Positions 818 through 61,652 are shown, counted from the stretch's first letter. The stretch is 64,000 nt of DNA from Sulfurospirillum diekertiae (GCF_002162315.1 NZ_CP021416.1:1872207-1936206), one strand, 5' to 3'. The notes: generated from the letters alone by a model not told the origin. Translations and numbers: made by a program.

Positions 818-1049
818 AACCAGCTCCTTATAACTTATTATAAAAAATAACTAATCTTATTTTTTTATTTTATAACTTCATTAGTTTCTTTTTGGTCGCT
901 AATAAGAAAAAATATAGAAAATTATTTTAATTATTTATAGTGATGGAGTGAAAACTATCTTTAAGAAATATTGATATGTATGAATCAAAGCCAAGACACT
1001 TATTAATATCGAATGCTTGCTATTATCGAGGAAGGAAATAAGAAAAATA
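818..1049. other. AT-rich intergenic region between NosB-like gene and IS110 element
   Basis: No convincing coding frame is seen on either strand. The stretch is very AT-rich, with T- and A-runs near 855-880 and 905-935. It may hold the promoter of the NosB-like gene (TATAAT on the minus strand at 842-837). It also contains the outer flank of the IS110 element, whose exact left boundary I could not fix. Confidence 0.5.
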
Positions 1050-1125
1050 AGAAGGGGGTCAGTTACCACCTTAAAACACCCTAAAAATATTAATAAATCA
1101 TAACCATTATTTTGTATTTTTTCCT

Positions 1126-2122
1126 TTAAGCAACATTGGAATTTTGAGCCACCATCCCACAATGAGCCTGATAGATTTCACTTGAATAACCTTGGTTGGA
1201 ATGAAAGAGTGCTCTAGCAATAATAATCAATTTTTTCATAACAGCAATTTGTATCAAAGTCGTATGTTTACCTTTTTCTTTAAGTCTGTCATAGAAACAT
1301 TTCATCTCTTCATTAAAACGAATCGTTACCATTGTCCCCATAAATAATGACCTTCGATACAGTTTATTACCCGCTTTTGAAATGCGTGTTTTTCCTCTAA
1401 CCGAAGTACCTGAGGTTTTTTCAATTGGGTCAAGTCCTGCTAAAGAGATAATCTGTTTTTGATTGGCATTGGGATATTTTAGAAAAAGATGGATTAACGC
1501 AATCGTTGCAATATCGCCAAGTCCTTTAATGGTTTGGATACTTTGGTATTTCAACGCTAATTTACTATCTTTGGTGATGAGTCTTTTTATTTCATCGATC
1601 GTATGCTGTTCTTTTTGTTTAAAGGCTTTTTTTTAAAGTTGCAGTACTCTCTTTATGCTGCAGTTTTTCTAAGTGATTGCTTGTTTGGACTCTTTGTTTT
1701 ACTAATAGTTGGTAATAGCTCATCAAGTCATTTATTTGCTCTACAATCACATCAATCACAGGAATATGAATCTCTTCTTCTTTTGCCAGCATTCCTGCAT
1801 GACAGAGCATCCTTGCATCTACTTTATCGGTTTTATTACGAATCGATAGCGCTTTAGCAAAGTTATGCGAAGCTTTTGGATTGATCTTAAAGACTCGAAT
1901 GTGTTTATTGGCACAAAAGAGTTCTAGGGTACTGCTATAACTTGATGTTGGTTCGTAAACAAAAACGAGGGAATCGTGTTCTTTTTTATAAAGTTTTTTG
2001 AGTTTAGAAAATAACTGCGTAAAGCCTTTAACGGTATTGGCTATTTCTATCTCTAGCTCACTTTGTGGGATAAACACACTCACAGTTGACTTAGAGACAT
2101 CCAATCCGATAAAATTATCCAT
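1126..2122 (-). pseudogene. IS110-family transposase, frameshifted
   Basis: Start is ATG at 2122 with GGAGG 7 bases upstream. The N-terminal RuvC-like domain carries the DEDD residues: D8 in IGLDVSKS, E57 in YEPTSSY, D99 and D102 in KTDKVDARM. That frame stops at 1619, just after an A8 run on the coding strand (T8 at 1627-1634). Removing one base from the run restores a continuous protein into the C-terminal transposase_20 domain, which has IKGLGDIA and AGLDPIEKTSG-type motifs and ends at 1126. The break may be a real inactivation, a sequencing insertion, or expression by slippage on the A-run. A -1 shift would hit a stop, so a standard -1 programmed frameshift is unlikely. Confidence 0.8.
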
Positions 2123-2288
2123 GATAAACCTCCATGACATGATTGGAGAGTTTGGTAGGCAAGAGGATAATTCCTCTTGCTGATGATTCAACCTTATCGC
2201 ACATTAACTTCGCCTCGTACAATACAGTCTAACCTCAAAGTTGACTTTGTTACCACTCAAGTTTTTAGTGCAATTACCTAACTGACCC
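2123..2288 (-). ncRNA. candidate IS110 bridge RNA in transposase leader
   Basis: IS110 elements are known to encode a guide (bridge) RNA in the non-coding end upstream of the recombinase. This leader contains a perfect 9-bp hairpin (arms 2159-2167 and 2172-2180, loop TAAT) and a 5-bp hairpin with a 4-base loop (2236-2249), and it is bounded by the inverted repeat at 2279-2288. Position and structure fit a bridge RNA. I did not identify the target- and donor-binding loops, so this is a structural and contextual inference. Confidence 0.45.
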
Positions 2289-2468
2289 TCAAGCTAATTC
2301 TATTTTTTAAGATAAAAGAACCGCTCTGGGCTAAACCCAGCATCTTAACATCCCAAACTCTATGAGTAACTGTATAACTTTTTGGCTTTTTTCATTATAC
2401 GAGGGATAAACTTTTAACTTTTTTATCATTTAACCTTTTATATATAAAGACTCAACATTACTAAAATA
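2289..2468. other. intergenic region between IS110 element and sirtuin gene
   Basis: No gene is seen. A 5-bp hairpin with a 5-base loop (CTGGG/CCCAG arms, 2326-2340) lies just outside the right inverted repeat and could be part of the insertion target or of the element end. The remainder is AT-rich with T-runs near 2390-2430. Confidence 0.4.
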
Positions 2469-3164
2469 TCACCCTTGCATAAATCGCTCAATATCCTCAA
2501 CGATCTCATCAATCGCCTCAGTCGCTTTTTGATGCAACACTTTCGTATAAACCCGCTCATTTATAGCGTCACTTGGCTCTAAATTATTGAGGATGGAAAC
2601 CTTTACATGTAAAGCGAAATGATCCATGGCAATGACATTTCCGCTTGAGCCGATGATGACTAAAAATTGGCAATCTTCCATCGTTTCGTAGAGATGTTCG
2701 TACATTGGAGCGGCTTCGCCGAAGAAGACGATGTCGGGGCGAAAGGAGCCGCCGCAAGTTTTACATGTAAAGGTTCGCTCTTGTTTGCTATAGCCGATGA
2801 GATGAGTTGTGCCGCACTGTTCACAGCGAAGGCGAGGCAAAAAGCCGTGCAAGTGTAAAATGTCCTTGCACCCTGCTCGCTCGAAAAGGTCGTCTACATT
2901 TTGGGTGATGAGCGCGATGTCGTTGGGGTATTTTTCTTGCAGTTTGGCGATGGCATAGTGCGCGGCATTAGGCTTAACGGAGTTTAGTTGTTCGCGCCTT
3001 GCGTCGTAAAATGTTAGGGTGTTTTCTCTGTTCCAAGACAGACAGCCGGCCGTGCAAATCTCTTCGATGCGGTACTTTTCCCAAAGTCCACCTGTGTCGC
3101 GAAAAGTAGAAAGCCCACTCTCCGCACTGATGCCTGCTCCTGAGAAAATTACAACCCGTGCCAT
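2469..3164 (-). CDS. cobB: Sir2-family NAD-dependent protein deacylase
   Basis: The 231-residue sirtuin uses NAD to remove acyl groups from protein lysines. It shows the NAD-binding GAGIS (9-13), TQNVD (87-91), catalytic His106 in LHLHG, four zinc cysteines (114, 117, 134, 137) and the late GSSGNV motif. Tyr53 and Arg56 in YDARR match the residues that let class III sirtuins such as E. coli CobB accept succinyl groups, so it may desuccinylate as well as deacetylate. The start ATG at 3164 lies 11 bases after the upstream hydrolase stop, which suggests co-transcription. Two copies of TTTACATGTAAA lie inside the gene (2602-2613 and 2760-2771); the second encodes the F-T-C-K that supplies zinc ligand Cys134. 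Confidence 0.9.
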   Translation of the reverse strand: MARVVIFSGAGISAESGLSTFRDTGGLWEKYRIEEICTAGCLSWNRENTLTFYDARREQLNSVKPNAAHYAIAKLQEKYPNDIALITQNVDDLFERAGCKDILHLHGFLPRLRCEQCGTTHLIGYSKQERTFTCKTCGGSFRPDIVFFGEAAPMYEHLYETMEDCQFLVIIGSSGNVIAMDHFALHVKVSILNNLEPSDAINERVYTKVLHQKATEAIDEIVEDIERFMQG

Positions 3165-3175
3165 GGTTTACCTCT

Positions 3176-3967
3176 TTACAGTTTTGCTAAAAATGCCTTG
3201 ATCGCTTCATTACTCTCTTCTGGATTTTCAACCACACTCATGTGTGCCGCATTTTTGATAAGTGCAAACTCTGAACCCTCTATCTGCTTTGCCATCGTTT
3301 GCATTCCTGAAGGAGGGGTTAATGTGTCATGCTCGCCGCACAAAAGCAGTGTTGGAATTTTTATGGAAGGAAGGAACTCAGTCATGTCATTACGTGTCAA
3401 CATGGCAAAGACACATCCTTTCACACCAATGGAGTTAAATTTCATGGACTTATTGATGCGCTTATCGACGAGCTCTTTATGCTCTTTTTTGTAGGTATCG
3501 CTGTAACACTGTGCAATAAAATGTTTCGAAAAGGATGTTAACCCTTTTGCATTAATGCGCTTAATAGCATCTGAGCGTCTCAGTTTGGCGTCATTGTTGT
3601 CGGCATGTGCCGCCGTGTCACATAAAATAAGTGCTGAAAATTTATTTTCCATGCGCTCTAAAGCACGCAAGGCGATGTAACCACCCATCGAAAACGCACA
3701 TAAAATAGGTGGTTTTTCATCTTTTAGGTCACCAATCATTAATTCAAGGTCATCCACAAATGACTCCATCGTAAACTGTCCATCACCAACAGATGAGTCG
3801 CCAAGCCCACGTATGTCGTACGCCACACAGTAGTAGGTTTCACTAAGAGCCGCTATTTGGGCGTGCCACATCGTGTGGTCATACGGAAAACCGTGTAAAA
3901 AAATGATTGCTCTATTTTTTTGATTGCCTTCCAATAAAACCGATAACCCGCCAACTGTTTTTTTCAT
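3176..3967 (-). CDS. alpha/beta-hydrolase fold protein
   Basis: This 263-residue cytoplasmic protein has the full alpha/beta-hydrolase layout. It has an HGFPYDH oxyanion region (25-31), a nucleophile elbow with Ser93 in AFSMGG, an acid Asp214 in CGEHD and His242 in NAAHMS. The architecture is that of small esterases and of 3-oxoadipate enol-lactonase-type enzymes, but the substrate cannot be read from sequence. It precedes the sirtuin by 11 bases and probably shares its transcript. Confidence 0.85.
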   Translation of the reverse strand: MKKTVGGLSVLLEGNQKNRAIIFLHGFPYDHTMWHAQIAALSETYYCVAYDIRGLGDSSVGDGQFTMESFVDDLELMIGDLKDEKPPILCAFSMGGYIALRALERMENKFSALILCDTAAHADNNDAKLRRSDAIKRINAKGLTSFSKHFIAQCYSDTYKKEHKELVDKRINKSMKFNSIGVKGCVFAMLTRNDMTEFLPSIKIPTLLLCGEHDTLTPPSGMQTMAKQIEGSEFALIKNAAHMSVVENPEESNEAIKAFLAKL

Positions 3968-52288: not shown

Positions 52289-53899
52289 TTAAGACTTAAA
52301 TTGATTCAGTTTTTCATTGAGATTTTCAGCCAATTTTGAGAGATGATCTGCCGCTGAGGCAATCTCTTCAACACTTCTGGCATTCTCACTGGTAAGAGAA
52401 TTAATGTTTGTTACCATTGAAACGATTCTATCCGTATCACTAGCGATTCGAATCGAATTTGCCGCACTGGTTGTGACAGAAACGACACTTTCTTGCATCA
52501 CACTGCTTGTCCCAAGGATAGTCTCTTCAACACCCGTTGAAACATCTGAAAGACGTCTGATATTTTTTGCATTACGTCCCATTTGCTCGGAAGAATCTAC
52601 AATTGACTGAACGATGACATTGATGGTCGCGTTAATCTCAGTCAATGAATTTTGGGTACGTTCTGCAAGCTTTCGCACTTCATCGGCGACAACCGCAAAG
52701 CCCCTTCCATGTTCTCCTGCACGTGCCGCTTCGATAGCAGCATTGAGTGCAAGTAAATTGGTTTGATCGGCAATATCAGAGATAACCGTCAAGATTTGTT
52801 TCACTTGTTCAGCATCACTGCTCATCTGCTCTAGTTTAGAAGCCAATGCTGTTTCTGCTTCACTGGCAAGTCCTACTTCATTGCGAAGACTTACCACTTC
52901 ATTTTTAGCATTATCCAGTTTTTGTCCTGCATCGGTAATACTTTTTTTCATCTGTTCTGAAAGCGCCGCTGTCTCTTGTACAAAGGTTTTAATCGTTGCA
53001 ATCTCTTGAATGGTATTTTCAACAATCGTCGTACTCTTTTCAGCATTACGCCCTATTTGCATACTGGTGGTACTAAGCTCATGCGACACAGAAGCATTTT
53101 CGCTTGAAGAATTTTTGGCATCCACAATGGTTTGCTCAAGCGTAGTAACCAAGTCGTTAAAACTATCTGTGATGTCTTTGAGCTCATTCTTTTTCTCATA
53201 ATGTATTCTAAATTTGAGCTCTTTGTGTTGAACAAAAGAGACCACACTATCACGGATAATATGCACCCCTTGGATGATATTGCTACGAATCATCAACCCA
53301 AATAACAATAGAGCCACAGCTGAAGCTATCGCAATGACAACCATCATAATAGCAGCACTATTTTTTACATCGGAAGCATGATTGGCTGATACTTTTGCAA
53401 GTTCAAAATTGAACTTCATATGCTCTTCAAATACCTGTGTAAAATTCGTAATTACCTCTGTACTGTTGGCAAGAAGTGTATTTAAATCAGCGTGATTATT
53501 TGCTCGTGAAAGCGTAATGATCTGTTTAAGAAGCACATTGTAGGCTTCCACCGCTTTATGATCTTTGTCTAAAAATTCTTTATCTTTGTCATCAGAGATA
53601 AATGCATCATAGCTCTTAATCGCCACATTCAACTTCTGGTTGAGTGTTTGCATATTGGCTTCAACTTTATCTTTTCCTGCTATTTCTGTTTGTGAAATAT
53701 GTTGCCAGATAGCAAGTCTTAATCTATAAGCAATCTGCATTGACTCATCAAGCACGAAAACGCTTGGAAGCGTATTGACATTGCTGTAGTTTGTCTCCGC
53801 ATAAACTTGCTCCATTTTCATAAAGCTAATTCCAAAAATCGTACATGTAGCGAGAATTGCAACTGCAAGCATCACTAAAAGTTGTTTTGAGATACTCAT
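52289..53899 (-). CDS. methyl-accepting chemotaxis protein, tandem copy 1
   Basis: This 536-residue transducer has a membrane helix (about 7-27), a four-helix-bundle sensor (about 35-190), a second helix (about 187-207), HAMP, and the signalling hairpin [26 protein letters not shown] lies before ATG 53899. The sensor half is clearly related to, but divergent from, that of the next gene, while the last roughly 235 codons are almost identical at DNA level. The two probably signal alike to different ligands. Confidence 0.93.
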
Positions 53900-54101: not shown

Positions 54102-55715
54102 TTAAGACTTAAATTGATTCAATTTCTCATTAAGATTTTCAGCCAATTTTGAGAGATGATCTGCCGCTGAGGCAATCTCTTCAACACTTCTGGCATTCTC
54201 ACTGGTAAGAGAATTAATGTTTGTTACCATTGAAACGATTCTATCCGTATCACTAGCGATTCGAATCGAATTTGCCGCACTGGTTGTGACAGAAACGACA
54301 CTTTCTTGCATCACACTGCTTGTCCCAAGGATAGTCTCTTCAACACCCGTTGAAACATCTGAAAGACGTCTGATATTTTTTGCATTACGTCCCATTTGCT
54401 CGGAAGAATCTACAATTGACTGAACGATGACATTGATGGTCGCGTTAATCTCAGTCAATGAATTTTGGGTACGTTCTGCAAGCTTTCGCACTTCATCGGC
54501 GACAACCGCAAAGCCCCTTCCATGTTCTCCTGCACGTGCCGCTTCGATAGCAGCATTGAGTGCAAGTAAATTGGTTTGATCGGCAATATCAGAGATAACC
54601 GTCAAGATTTGTTTCACTTGTTCAGCATCACTGCTCATCTGCTCTAGTTTAGAAGCCAATGCTGTTTCTGCTTCACTGGCAAGTCCTACTTCATTGCGAA
54701 GACTTACCACTTCATTTTTAGCATTATCCAGTTTTTTGTCCTGCATCGGTAATACTTTTTTTTTCATCTGTTCTGAAAGCGCCGCTGTCTCTTGTACAAA
54801 GGTTTTAATCGTTGCAATCTCTTGAATGGTATTTTCAACAATCGTCGTACTCTTTGCGGCATTTCGCCCTATTTGCATACTGGTGGAGCTAAGTTCATGT
54901 GATACGGAAGCATTCTCAGTCGATGATTGTTTCGCATCCACAATGGTTTGCTCAAGCGTGGTGACTAAGGCATTAAAACTATCAACAATTTCTTTAAACT
55001 CATTCTTTTTCTCATAGGTGATTCTAAATGTTAACATTTTATTTTTCACAAAAGAGACCATGCTATCACGAATAATATGCACGCCTTGAAGAATATTGCG
55101 ACGGATCATAACGCTGGTAATAATAACTAAAACAGCCACTAATAATGAAAGCCCTATCATCAGTGCACTGGCGTTATCTTTTGTATTGGAAGCTTCAAGT
55201 GCCTTTGTTTCGGCTAACTCTTTATTGTAATTCATATGATTGCGAAGGGTATCTCCAATCGTTGCTAAAAATGGTCTCTTCGCAAATGCAAGTGTTCGCG
55301 CTTCTTCTTTCTTATTGGCTTTAGAGAGTGCTAAAAACTGATCTAGTAAGGCATTGTATTGATTTAAGATTTCTTTGTCTTTTTCATAGAGCTCTTTATC
55401 TTTTGCATCCGATAAATACTCAGAATATGATGCAACTTTTTTGTCTAATAACTCTCTTACTTCTTTAATCATAGCGGCTGATTCATCCATTGATTTTTCA
55501 TCCGTTGCGGAGAGAAACTCAAATGCGTAGACACGAAGGTAGTAATAATCCTCCATCATGCCATTGACAATTAAAATACTCGGTAAGACATTCTCATTGC
55601 CATAATTTGTATTGGTATAAACCTCGCCCATTTTGTAAAAGCTAATAGCAAAAACGGAACCAATACCTATAATCGCAATTGTAAGCATAACGATAAGCTG
55701 CTTTGCAATATTCAT
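54102..55715 (-). CDS. methyl-accepting chemotaxis protein, tandem copy 2, with altered coiled-coil segment
   Basis: The 537-residue paralogue of copy 1 has the same domain order. DNA from about 54145 to 54860 matches copy 1 almost base for base, except that T5 is T6 (54732-54737) and T7 is T9 (54756-54764). The net gain of three bases keeps the frame but replaces the expected SITDAGQ with KVLPMQDK and adds one residue in the coiled coil. That would upset the heptad register, so the segment is suspect. The sensor and membrane regions are intact. AGGAG precedes ATG 55715. Confidence 0.88.
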
Positions 55716-57573: not shown

Positions 57574-58161
57574 CTACTTGCGCATGCCTCGCATAAACTG
57601 TGAAAAACGTGAACGTCTAGGTATTTCAGTCGGAAAACTTGGATCACTCGCATGCCTTACATCTTCAATGGAATAAACGGCTTGGGGATTGTGCATTACA
57701 ATCAATTCTCGTACATGTGTGATGGAGGAGCGTTTAATGACCGTAAAGATGATATTAACCGATCCAGCATTACCTTCAGCATCCGCAACCGTCACGCTGT
57801 AACGAAGCGCACGCAACGCGGCAACTAAAATATGTGAATCTCTCTTCGTAATAATACGCACCACCACCATACCAATCGCCAAACGATTTTCAATAAACAT
57901 TCCAATGTAATTTCCCATTGAAAACCCAAGTGCATAGGCAATATAATTGATAGGATTGGTCAGATTTTCCATGACTTTAGAGATGGCTAAAAGCCAGATT
58001 GTGACTTCAAAAAATCCTAAAATAGGCGCCCATAATCGCAACCCTTTGGAAACAAAAATGATACGCAGCGTACCAATGCTGACATCACAAATCCGTGCCA
58101 ATGCAATTAAAATAGGAATGCCATATAAGCCAAACCACTCGTGTTGAAGTAACTCACTCAT
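57574..58161 (-). CDS. UPF0316/DUF2179 membrane protein
   Basis: This 195-residue protein has three hydrophobic helices (about 14-31, 40-58, 66-90) and a cytosolic DUF2179-type domain (VVRIITKRDSHILVAALR to VYSIEDVRHA). Family members are of unknown function; DUF2179 domains occur in YitT-type membrane proteins and bind small ligands in some structures. AAAAGGATG overlaps the start region at 58161. Confidence 0.85.
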   Translation of the reverse strand: MSELLQHEWFGLYGIPILIALARICDVSIGTLRIIFVSKGLRLWAPILGFFEVTIWLLAISKVMENLTNPINYIAYALGFSMGNYIGMFIENRLAIGMVVVRIITKRDSHILVAALRALRYSVTVADAEGNAGSVNIIFTVIKRSSITHVRELIVMHNPQAVYSIEDVRHASDPSFPTEIPRRSRFSQFMRGMRK

Positions 58162-58302: not shown

Positions 58303-59163
58303 ATGCTTATAAAACTTACCCTTTTTTGCCTTTTGTTATTTACATCACTCCATGCTAAAGAGTATAGTTTTGCAACCTACCCTTCCAATGATCCCATCAA
58401 AGTAAGACAAGCTTTTACCCCTTTAATGGAATATTTAACCGCGCAAAGTGGCGATACCTTTAGTCTTGTTATTACGAAAGACTACGAAGAGCTTGCCGCA
58501 CGTATTGAAGAAAAAAGCGTTGATTTTGCATGGCTTAATACCAAAAGTTTTGTCTTGCTCAAAGAGAGAACGCCTTCACTACGCTACCTTGTAACCTACC
58601 TTGAACATTCTAAAAGTGGGAAGATTACCCCTTATTATCAATCTTATATCGTAACACTCAAAGAGTCCAATATCACGTCACTTGAAGAAGCAAAAGGAAA
58701 AGTCTTTGCATTTACCGATAAAGATTCAACCTCAGGCTATGCTTATCCTATGGTGCTCTTAAAAGAACATCGTATCAGCCCCGACAGCTTTTTTAAAAAA
58801 GTTTTTTTTCTCAAAAAGCATGACAAAGTGATCGAATCGCTGATGCAGCACTCCATTGAAATTGGCGCGATTTCCGATGGAACGTATTATAACGCTTTAG
58901 AAAAATACGGCGATCAATTCAATGTTCTTGCAACTTCAAAGCCCATTCCTCTGGATGTTATTGTCGCTACGCAAACTATTTCAAACAAAGAAGCAGAACG
59001 CATTGCTTTATTGCTGGAAGACATTCCAATGGATTCGCCTTCCAATAAAGCATTTAAAGAGTATTTAGGCTGGCCAAGTGCTGGTTTCATCAAGGAAGAT
59101 GAACACTTCTACGATACCTTTAGCAAAATCCTAAAAGATGCGATGAATGAAACTCTACAATAA
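58303..59163 (+). CDS. PhnD-like periplasmic phosphate/phosphonate-type binding protein, copy 1
   Basis: The 286-residue periplasmic-binding protein (type II fold) has signal peptide LFCLLLFTSLHAK (cleavage about 18). It shows VDFAWLNTKSFVLL, a PhnD-family pocket sequence KVFAFTDKDSTSGYAYPMVLL, and VGAISDGTYYNAL-like IGAISDGTYYN. The gene overlaps the diguanylate cyclase by 17 bases. Without permease genes it may serve as a sensor subunit rather than a transporter part. Ligand unknown. Confidence 0.83.
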   Translation: MLIKLTLFCLLLFTSLHAKEYSFATYPSNDPIKVRQAFTPLMEYLTAQSGDTFSLVITKDYEELAARIEEKSVDFAWLNTKSFVLLKERTPSLRYLVTYLEHSKSGKITPYYQSYIVTLKESNITSLEEAKGKVFAFTDKDSTSGYAYPMVLLKEHRISPDSFFKKVFFLKKHDKVIESLMQHSIEIGAISDGTYYNALEKYGDQFNVLATSKPIPLDVIVATQTISNKEAERIALLLEDIPMDSPSNKAFKEYLGWPSAGFIKEDEHFYDTFSKILKDAMNETLQ

Positions 59164-60619
59164 GATTCTTTTTTTAACCATCATTCAACTCTCAGCCATT
59201 TTTATTTTTGGTATTTATGAGATGCAATCGCTCTATCTTACCCAAAAAAAAGCCTTCGATCAAAATAAACTGTTGCAAATGGAGATGATTCAAAAACGTT
59301 TTGAAGAAAAACTAGACCAGCTTCAAAAAACGGCTGAAATTCTCACCAACTCCCAAGAAGTCGTCACAGGGATTATCAGCAATGATACCGACATGCTTTT
59401 CAATTGGAGTAAACTCTTTCTCTCTTCAAGCATCAATAAAATTCATTTCATGGATATGGACGGCATGATTATCAGCCGAGGTGAGTCGGAATTTCGCTTT
59501 TCAGACGATGTCTCAAAGCGGTTTTACATCCAACAAACCCTTAAAAATGATACATTCTTGGGAATTGATCTCATCGATGGTGAAGAGTGTTTAATCTATG
59601 CAAAACGCATAAAACAGTATGGAACCAAACCTATTGGTATCATCAGCGTTGCCTTAGTGATTGACCAAGAGTTACTCTCTGTTCTGGTGCAAGGAACCAT
59701 GATGAACATTACATATCATTCCGAACATCAAACACTCTCTTCCAATAAAGACCAAAAACTAATCGATATCTCATCCTTACATGTTATATTAGAATCAGGA
59801 AGTATCAAAGATGTTTCCTTCACGATTGGCTTAGCCTCAGAAAAAGAGCTCATAGCGCTCAAAGAGGCACGTACCAACTTTTTTATTGGCATTGCATTTG
59901 CCTTAGTTCTTCTGGTGCTTGCCATTCATTTTACATTGATCAAATCACTCAAAGAATATAAAGCACTCTCTCAAGTCTTGATTGATTTTTATGAAGATCG
60001 CCTGGATATTCAAGAAGTCATAACCACCATAGAGCAAACCACCCAAAAAAACACTACGCCTGAAGTCAAAAAAATTTCAGAAGCACTTTTTAATATGAGC
60101 CAAAAAGTAGCCGAAACGCAAAAGGCACTGGAACTCTTAAGCAGTACCGATCAACTCACCTCTCTTTCCAACAGACGTAAACTAGAAGAGTGCTTAGAGC
60201 AAAAGATTAAAGAGGCCAGTCGAGGCAGTTTCTTTTCCGTGATTATGCTTGATATCGACCGCTTTAAAACGATTAATGACACCTACGGGCATGAAATCGG
60301 TGATCACGTTTTGACACACATGGCACATCTGATGCAAGAGACCATGCGGACGAGTGATTTGCTCGGTCGTTGGGGCGGAGAGGAGTTTTTACTCATCTTA
60401 CCGCAAACCGATCTTGAAGGTGCCCTGTTAATGGCAGAGCAGTTGCGCTCAAAGATTTACAACTTTACATTTGAGCGTTATCCCCAGCGTGTGAGTATGA
60501 GCTTAGGCGTGACACACTATCATAAAGGCGACACACCCAATAGCATTCTAAGACGTGCAGATAATGCCCTTTACCGCGCTAAAAATAATGGAAGGAACAG
60601 GGTTGAACATGACGCTTAG
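59147..60619 (+). CDS. membrane diguanylate cyclase with periplasmic sensor
   Basis: This 490-residue enzyme has a membrane helix (about 7-26), a Cache-like periplasmic domain (about 30-240), a second helix (about 245-265) and a GGDEF domain. The active site is GGEEF at 410-414 with an inhibitory RxxD (RTSD 401-404) correctly spaced, so c-di-GMP synthesis with product feedback is likely. It is embedded between two PhnD-like genes with overlapping ends, which suggests that the binding proteins present a ligand to its periplasmic domain. Confidence 0.9.
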   Translation: MKLYNKILFLTIIQLSAIFIFGIYEMQSLYLTQKKAFDQNKLLQMEMIQKRFEEKLDQLQKTAEILTNSQEVVTGIISNDTDMLFNWSKLFLSSSINKIHFMDMDGMIISRGESEFRFSDDVSKRFYIQQTLKNDTFLGIDLIDGEECLIYAKRIKQYGTKPIGIISVALVIDQELLSVLVQGTMMNITYHSEHQTLSSNKDQKLIDISSLHVILESGSIKDVSFTIGLASEKELIALKEARTNFFIGIAFALVLLVLAIHFTLIKSLKEYKALSQVLIDFYEDRLDIQEVITTIEQTTQKNTTPEVKKISEALFNMSQKVAETQKALELLSSTDQLTSLSNRRKLEECLEQKIKEASRGSFFSVIMLDIDRFKTINDTYGHEIGDHVLTHMAHLMQETMRTSDLLGRWGGEEFLLILPQTDLEGALLMAEQLRSKIYNFTFERYPQRVSMSLGVTHYHKGDTPNSILRRADNALYRAKNNGRNRVEHDA

Positions 60620-61424
60620 AAAATTTATGAGCATTTTCTTACTTCTGTGTATGTCGCTTTTTGCCCAAGAAAAACTGATTCTTGGGGTTAATCCTTACAA
60701 AAGTGTTGAGGAACTCCGTGTGATCCATGCAGAGCTCATTGCGTATCTTGAAAAAGCGCTTGATCGAGAGATTGTCTTTGTCGTGGCTAAAGATTATAAC
60801 CAGATCATGACATTAGTAGAGCAAGGCAGTGTGGATATTGCGTCTGTCTCCCCCAAACTTCTTGCTATCTTGCGGCAAAGAGAGCCAAAACTGCACTATT
60901 TAGCAACTATCAAATTTGCCAATGCACAAGTGGGTACCCGAAGCAGTTACCACGGTTTGATTTTAACTCTTAAAGGAAGTGCCATTCAAAATATTGCCGA
61001 TCTAAAAGGGAAGAGTTTTGGCTTTACCGATCCTGATTCAACCTCAGGATACCTCTACCCTCGCTTTATCATGCAGCAAAATGGCATCAACCCCAACAAA
61101 GACCTAGGGAAGGTCTATATGATCAAAAAACACTCTAAAATCATTGATACAATTTTGGAGGAATCAATTGATGCAGGAGCCGTTTATGATGGTATATACT
61201 ATGAGCTTTCCAAAGAGAAGCAGGAAAAAATACGTATTTTAGCGACCACCGAAGAGATACCCTACGATGCCATGATCGCCTCCAACCATTTAAATAAAGC
61301 GCTAATCGCAAAAATCCATGACCTACTTTTAGCCTTTCATCCATCCCAAGCAACGCAAGCAGGCATTGCAGGTTTTGAGGAAAAACCACTCTCTTTATAC
61401 GATCGTTTACTCAATCTTGAATAG
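60609..61424 (+). CDS. PhnD-like periplasmic binding protein, copy 2
   Basis: The 271-residue protein has a signal peptide (FLLLCMSLFAQ) and PhnD-type motifs VDIASVSPKLLAIL, KSFGFTDPDSTSGYLYPRFI and IDAGAVYDGIYYEL. These align with copy 1 at low overall similarity. I chose ATG 60609, with GGAAGGA about 10 bases before and an 11-base overlap with the cyclase stop. Completes a three-gene signalling operon. Confidence 0.83.
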   Translation: MTLRKFMSIFLLLCMSLFAQEKLILGVNPYKSVEELRVIHAELIAYLEKALDREIVFVVAKDYNQIMTLVEQGSVDIASVSPKLLAILRQREPKLHYLATIKFANAQVGTRSSYHGLILTLKGSAIQNIADLKGKSFGFTDPDSTSGYLYPRFIMQQNGINPNKDLGKVYMIKKHSKIIDTILEESIDAGAVYDGIYYELSKEKQEKIRILATTEEIPYDAMIASNHLNKALIAKIHDLLLAFHPSQATQAGIAGFEEKPLSLYDRLLNLE

Positions 61425-61454: not shown

Positions 61455-61652
61455 TTAGAGAATAATCTCTTTCACGCGTCCAACTTCGCCACTTTCCAAA
61501 CGTACTTTAATGCCATGAGGATGGTTTGACGAATTGGTCAGAATGTCTTTAACGACACCTTCGGTGAGCTTGCCACTGCGTTGATCTTCTTTTAAAACAA
61601 TCAAAACTTTCACGCCTTTTTGAATGTTACTGCGACTCTGTCCTGCACTCAT
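61455..61652 (-). CDS. YwbE-family (DUF2196) protein
   Basis: The 65-residue protein is of the small DUF2196/YwbE family (KGVKVLIVLKEDQRSGKLTEG and HPHGIKVRLESGEVGRVKEI), likely a small beta-barrel of unknown role. AAAGGA, formed with a palindrome copy, precedes ATG 61652. It lies 63 bases past the recQ stop, in the same direction. Confidence 0.85.
   Translation of the reverse strand: MSAGQSRSNIQKGVKVLIVLKEDQRSGKLTEGVVKDILTNSSNHPHGIKVRLESGEVGRVKEIIL

Follow-up and report, generated by a model that had tools for sequence, protein, structure and literature searches.

What do two secreted PhnD-type binding proteins do when the gene between them encodes a membrane diguanylate cyclase and no transporter is encoded alongside? 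The question is raised by a locus of Sulfurospirillum diekertiae that lies in the window, the 64,000-nucleotide stretch analyzed here (1872207-1936206 of the 2.88-Mb single-contig genome). Its three genes have overlapping ends, as an earlier note had described (Table 1). The downstream overlap follows from the choice of PhnD2 start: the ORF caller picks a GTG at 60555, and the ATG at 60609 yields the 11-base overlap and a clean signal peptide. Both overlaps are identical in three relatives that we checked (L024, L027, and L031), whose cyclases are 65 to 79% identical to that of S. diekertiae, and translational coupling across them is probable. Since the neighboring genes on either side (57574-58161 and 61455-61652) are on the opposite strand, the operon consists of exactly three genes. 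No permease or ATPase gene adjoins it. In most of the relatives that carry it, the triplet occupies the equivalent chromosomal site, beside a gene for a 195-amino-acid (aa) membrane protein and a 65-aa/RecQ-like pair; outside the genus, its surroundings differ.

Table 1. Features of the PhnD1-cyclase-PhnD2 operon, from ORF reading, Pfam, alignments, and structure prediction (positions in the window)
Feature	Position	Strand	Description
PhnD1	58303..59163	+	286 aa; secreted PF12974 binding protein, upstream/accessory partner
Membrane diguanylate cyclase	59147..60619	+	490 aa; TM1, periplasmic dCache-like domain, TM2, signaling helix, GGDEF (GGEEF)
PhnD2	60609..61424	+	271 aa; secreted PF12974 binding protein, downstream/core partner
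PhnD1/cyclase overlap	59147..59163	+	17 bases; exact
Cyclase/PhnD2 overlap	60609..60619	+	11 bases; exact
Periplasmic sensor domain (predicted double Cache)	59225..59881	+	residues 27-245; signature R111-x3-E115-x2-F118-x-D120, G164 (alignments, AlphaFold2 model)
GGDEF catalytic domain	60143..60601	+	residues 333-485; Pfam PF00990, E 1.5e-48
Inhibitory (I-) site RTSD	60347..60358	+	residues 401-404
GGEEF active site	60374..60388	+	residues 410-414

Several observations concern the surroundings of the triplet. In one genome (G017; L035 5086-8071), the operon extends past PhnD2 into an overlapping gene for a GGDEF-EAL protein, placing a cyclase and a probable phosphodiesterase in one unit. In several relatives (L024 15235-18032, and L025, L026, L027, L029, and L030), a second pair, PhnD plus a PAS-GGDEF protein (with dCache_3 in L024), lies a few kilobases from the triplet; no such pair was found at the matching place in the S. 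diekertiae genome. Elsewhere in the window, two adjoining chemoreceptor genes on the - strand (52289-53899 and 54102-55715) are near-identical over ~700 bp at their 3′ ends and differ in their 5′ halves, which points to gene conversion or recent duplication. In the latter gene, +2 and +1 indels in A runs cancel within ~30 bp; either the gene carries a frameshift that has been compensated, or the homopolymers were misread in sequencing.

Both binding proteins match PF12974 (E 5e-51 for PhnD1 and 4.5e-55 for PhnD2), pass the threshold of the broader subfamily model TIGR01098, and begin with a Sec-type signal that lacks a lipobox cysteine (in PhnD1, the predicted cleavage falls between SLHA and KEY). 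In the PDB, the top matches of PhnD1 were ArrX and AioX, and that of PhnD2 was PtxB. ArrX and AioX signal to kinases, and we counted this match in favor of a signaling role. The AioX pocket residues used as a reference are Tyr88, Tyr131, Ser161, Ser163, and His192, plus Cys106 (PMC5908839). Alignment to these residues shows that the five oxyanion contacts of AioX are kept as Y61, Y112, S142, S144, and H173 in PhnD1 and as Y63, Y114, S144, S146, and H175 in PhnD2, with T143 and D192 or T145 and D194, respectively, completing the pocket. Both also retain the aspartate that accompanies phosphate in AioX. The Cys106 position, which is a specificity position, is Asn79 in PhnD1 and Ser81 in PhnD2; a Cys of this type occurs in each of the nine domains that make up a separate kinase-linked clade, one of which is encoded at another locus (L021) of the S. 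diekertiae genome. With the pocket residues kept and the Cys replaced by Asn or Ser, both proteins appear able to bind a phosphate-like group and are unlikely to use arsenite-type chemistry; their ligands may differ from each other. An arsenic-sensor reading was rejected, given the missing Cys and the different clade.

The link between PhnD-type proteins and GGDEF proteins extends beyond the triplet. Of six true PF12974 loci in the S. diekertiae genome, five lie next to, or form part of, a gene for a GGDEF protein: the triplet itself, a PhnD-PAS-PAS-GGDEF-EAL fusion (L022), a PhnD beside a LapD/MoxY-PAS-GGDEF protein (L023), a PhnD beside a HAMP-GGDEF-EAL protein (L058), and an NMT1-PhnD/GGDEF gene split into two frames by a frameshift (L059 2766-5352; about 2242350-2243830). 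The probability of this arising by chance is ~3e-7, given about 50 GGDEF genes, an assumed total of ~2900 genes, and fusions counted as adjacency. In the split gene, two different binding-protein domains precede the GGDEF domain. At the sixth locus (L021 4294-7987 with 844-3438; about 975 kb), an ArrX-like PhnD with the conserved pocket Cys, a histidine kinase, and a sigma-54 regulator adjoin a molybdopterin oxidoreductase; this locus probably encodes a sensor for arsenate or similar respiration. Two weak PF12974 matches (L060 and L061) look like members of other binding-protein families and were set aside.

We determined the conservation of the arrangement in 397 Campylobacterota genomes. The full cyclase query matched 14 genomes at an E value of ≤1e-60. 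A profile of the sensor domain only, containing neither the output domain nor PhnD, recovered the same 14 (E < 1e-60) and gave no match between 1e-62 and 1e-8. Weaker matches (G160, G214, G530, G538, G438, G435, and G558) were for the most part chemoreceptors, or else proteins carrying a generic Cache-like domain, and were rejected. The earlier note had allowed that homologues of the cyclase might usually occur without binding proteins; PhnD2, however, is directly adjacent in all 14 strong sensor matches. PhnD1 is present at 67 to 73% identity in 10 further genomes of the genus and is absent from G016, G023, G017, G392, G259, and Malaciobacter halophilus (L086). Conservation of the triplet thus holds in full for PhnD2 and in part for PhnD1, which indicates that PhnD2 is the core partner and PhnD1 is optional. 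In one genome (G025; L032 and L094), the order PhnD1-sensor-PhnD2 is kept, with a histidine kinase replacing the GGDEF domain. This kinase (L032) falls inside the cyclase clade of the sensor tree (support, 100/100), indicating that the output domain was probably exchanged while both flanking binding proteins were retained.

The sensor, accompanied by one or two PhnDs, was found in five phyla or classes, with a cyclase, a histidine kinase, or a SpoIIE phosphatase as the output. The genome-contig loci outside Campylobacterota were retrieved by PhnD alignment, so that sensor-PhnD adjacency there is conditioned on the search, and these loci by themselves are no proof of constant linkage. GGDEF outputs occur in alphaproteobacterial metagenome-assembled genomes (MAGs) with the order PhnD-PhnD-cyclase (L087 and L088), in Marinobacterium (L092), and in a Synergistaceae MAG (L100). 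Histidine kinases occur at L032/L094, at L095, and, as hybrid kinases, in Desulfobacterota (L084 and L098). Two gammaproteobacterial MAGs (L091 and L093) combine a 571-aa tandem PhnD-PhnD fusion with a hybrid kinase and a REC-PAS-GGDEF protein. SpoIIE-type phosphatases are joined to the PhnD-sensor unit in Desulfobacterota (L090 4704-6443 and L096 7004-8764; L097 6854-8635 was assigned to this set by its position in the PhnD and sensor trees). Sensor searches without a PhnD condition yielded four strong sensors in 340 genomes of one class and one in 342 genomes of one order. Of the two not previously seen, one adjoins a PhnD and the other (G474) is at a contig edge, where adjacency could not be judged. 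Recurrence of the same unit with different enzymes points to a role dedicated to chemical sensing and not to transport.

A maximum-likelihood tree of 70 PhnD domains separates these proteins by partner (it is a quick tree with some long branches, and no point made here rests on those rows alone). All 36 sensor-linked PhnDs form one clade whatever the output (SH-aLRT, 100), 10 of 11 ABC-linked PhnDs form a separate clade (SH-aLRT, 97), and AioX/ArrX-like PhnDs form a separate group (SH-aLRT, 99). The tree bears on the possibility that PhnD1 and PhnD2 serve an atypical or distantly encoded permease, being cotranscribed with a cyclase that reports uptake. Genuine PhnD-permease-ATPase operons are present in other Campylobacterota (L066 to L075), which is a point for this explanation, but their PhnDs are distinct from the sensor-linked ones. 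PhnD1 and PhnD2 also score far below the cut-off of the PhnD equivalog model TIGR03431 (118.3 and 120.8 bits versus 261.1 bits). Moreover, no PhnE scores above the cut-off anywhere in the complete S. diekertiae genome; the best sub-threshold match, at 371 kb, is MetI, encoded beside MetN in a MetQNI operon. The absence of transport genes reported in the earlier note extends, for PhnE above the cut-off, from the neighborhood of the triplet to the whole genome, and the remote ABC transporter that would have spoken against the note's reading did not emerge. Neither of the two outcomes that the note had named as refuting its reading was observed. We regard a role in transport as very improbable.

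The tree also bears on whether two binding proteins per receptor have a function. In the alphaproteobacterial loci (L087 and L088), the two PhnD copies share one small clade; at L095 and at L099, the two copies of each locus are mutual nearest relatives; and tandem PhnD fusions occur both in the sensor-linked family and in another kinase-linked family (L114, L117, and L157). Judged from these branching patterns, PhnD pairs arose more than once, and this recurrence suggests that having two binding proteins for each receptor serves a function. A variant of the signaling explanation holds that PhnD2 alone signals, with PhnD1 as a passenger whose role is separate or dispensable. The species that lack PhnD1 fit this variant. 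Against it, PhnD1 keeps all of the pocket residues, its level of identity across the genus and the exact 17-base overlap are maintained, and PhnD pairs, tandem fusions included, recur independently in other lineages. We consider the variant doubtful, though it has a better claim than any role in transport. Tandem fusions were seen at L114, L117, L118, L120, and L157, in Nitrospirota-type and Syntrophus MAGs, with four of the five beside histidine kinases; at L114, L117, and L157, the AioX-type Cys is found in the first half, and the corresponding residue of the second half is Gly.

The presumed receiver of the signal is the cyclase. Its catalytic domain reads RTSD-LLGRW-GGEEF (residues 401 to 414), with RxxD five residues upstream of GG(D/E)EF as for diguanylate cyclases. 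At the level of motifs, the active site is thus intact, as the earlier note had it, and the inhibitory site is present as well; c-di-GMP synthesis is the activity predicted from these motifs. The periplasmic part has no Pfam match, Cache families included. In other bacteria, homologues of the sensor match a Pfam family, namely dCache_3, CHASE4, or dCache_1, and some do so above the cut-off (dCache_3 among these). Foldseek results for the full-length model were dominated by GGDEF structures, and the periplasmic domain was therefore modeled separately, using AlphaFold2 and 19 sequences (pLDDT, 87.9; pTM, 0.83). The model predicts a membrane-distal and a membrane-proximal PAS-like lobe on one long helix between the two transmembrane helices. 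Its PDB matches include DctB, KinD, Tlp3, PctA, LuxQ, and the LuxQ chain of the LuxP-LuxQ complex (1zhh_B); a search of a viral library gave nothing useful. The domain is accordingly described here as a predicted double Cache.

Most of these double-Cache matches (DctB, Tlp3, and PctA) bind small molecules themselves, and the invariant motif R111...F118-x-D120 of the sensor could be a pocket. The cyclase might then bind its ligand directly, with the PhnDs only trapping, buffering, or competing for the same compound. However, LuxQ, which has the same fold, is under the control of a binding protein, LuxP, that docks on it. Scavenging would require neither strict adjacency nor a PhnD clade that tracks the sensor across distant groups, and without a permease a trapped ligand goes nowhere. 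We consider direct sensing unlikely.

The constant adjacency of PhnD2, the lack of a PhnE, the swapped outputs, and the separate PhnD clade together argue that the binding proteins act on the cyclase and not on a transporter. We conclude that the triplet is probably a self-contained chemosensory unit in which the binding proteins control the cyclase through its periplasmic domain. The earlier note had proposed such signaling for both binding proteins; linkage, clade, and output swapping favor the proposal, and only PhnD2 is a constant partner. In the mechanism that we propose, PhnD1 and PhnD2 would be soluble in the periplasm and would close around a small phosphate-like ligand (a tetrahedral oxyanion or a phosphonate). 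The loaded proteins (or the empty ones, loaded being the more likely) would dock on the double-Cache domain, a step that we take as most likely given the LuxP-LuxQ and NspS-MbaA precedents. Docking would shift the transmembrane helices, the dimeric GGDEF domain would be switched, and cytoplasmic c-di-GMP would change. PhnD2 would be the constant partner, and PhnD1 would add a second input or tune the first. We suggest, tentatively and with less conviction than attaches to signaling as such, that the more general form is a non-identical PhnD pair on a dimeric double-Cache receptor, integrating two oxyanion-type ligands, with an output that has been freely exchanged in several phyla.

To our knowledge, the input is known for few c-di-GMP enzymes. 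In this case, the receiver, the proteins presumed to deliver the ligand, and the predicted ligand-contact residues can all be named, which makes the input directly testable. If the proposal is correct, c-di-GMP levels in Campylobacterota are set by compounds resembling phosphate or phosphonates (or by another oxyanion), and a single sensing unit, plugged into kinases or phosphatases elsewhere, provides a natural set for studying transmembrane signaling by docked binding proteins.

The earlier note knew of no described system with this exact arrangement. We found no description of PhnD-type proteins with a separate diguanylate cyclase in the open-access literature; according to a review from 2022, SBP_bac_3 domains were the only members of the binding-protein clan that had been studied in c-di-GMP networks (PMC8846402). 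Nevertheless, binding-protein control of c-di-GMP enzymes is already known; the new part is the spread across phyla, the interchangeable outputs, and the repeated PhnD pairing. In the NspS-MbaA system of Vibrio cholerae and Sinorhizobium meliloti, a c-di-GMP enzyme of the membrane is controlled by a binding protein that acts on the periplasmic domain of the enzyme (PMC8967002, PMC9993111). The triplet likewise links binding-protein genes to a membrane GGDEF enzyme with a periplasmic domain, a likeness known here from the genes. In contrast, NspS is a single PotD-type polyamine-binding protein whereas the triplet has two PF12974 proteins, and MbaA has GGDEF plus EAL domains whereas the triplet cyclase has GGDEF only. 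In Salmonella, the double-Cache diguanylate cyclase STM1987 needs the periplasmic binding protein ArtI for its response (PMC8846402), but ArtI is one arginine-binding protein of another family.

Other known systems share parts of the triplet. AioX-AioS-AioR and ArrX-ArrS-ArrR use a PhnD-fold signaling binding protein with the same Tyr/Ser/His set in the pocket. Their output is a histidine kinase and a response regulator beside a molybdoenzyme, and S. diekertiae encodes such a system at a separate locus, L021; the triplet PhnDs, unlike AioX and ArrX, lack Cys106, belong to a separate clade, and have no such partners. The PhnD and PtxB proteins of the PhnCDE and PtxABC transporters have the fold, the PF12974 domain, and the core pocket in common with the triplet proteins, which differ in their clade and in having no cognate permease or ATPase. 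LuxP belongs to another binding-protein family, specific for AI-2, and the output of LuxQ is a kinase; the double-Cache periplasmic domain of LuxQ nonetheless matches, in structure, the one predicted for the cyclase.
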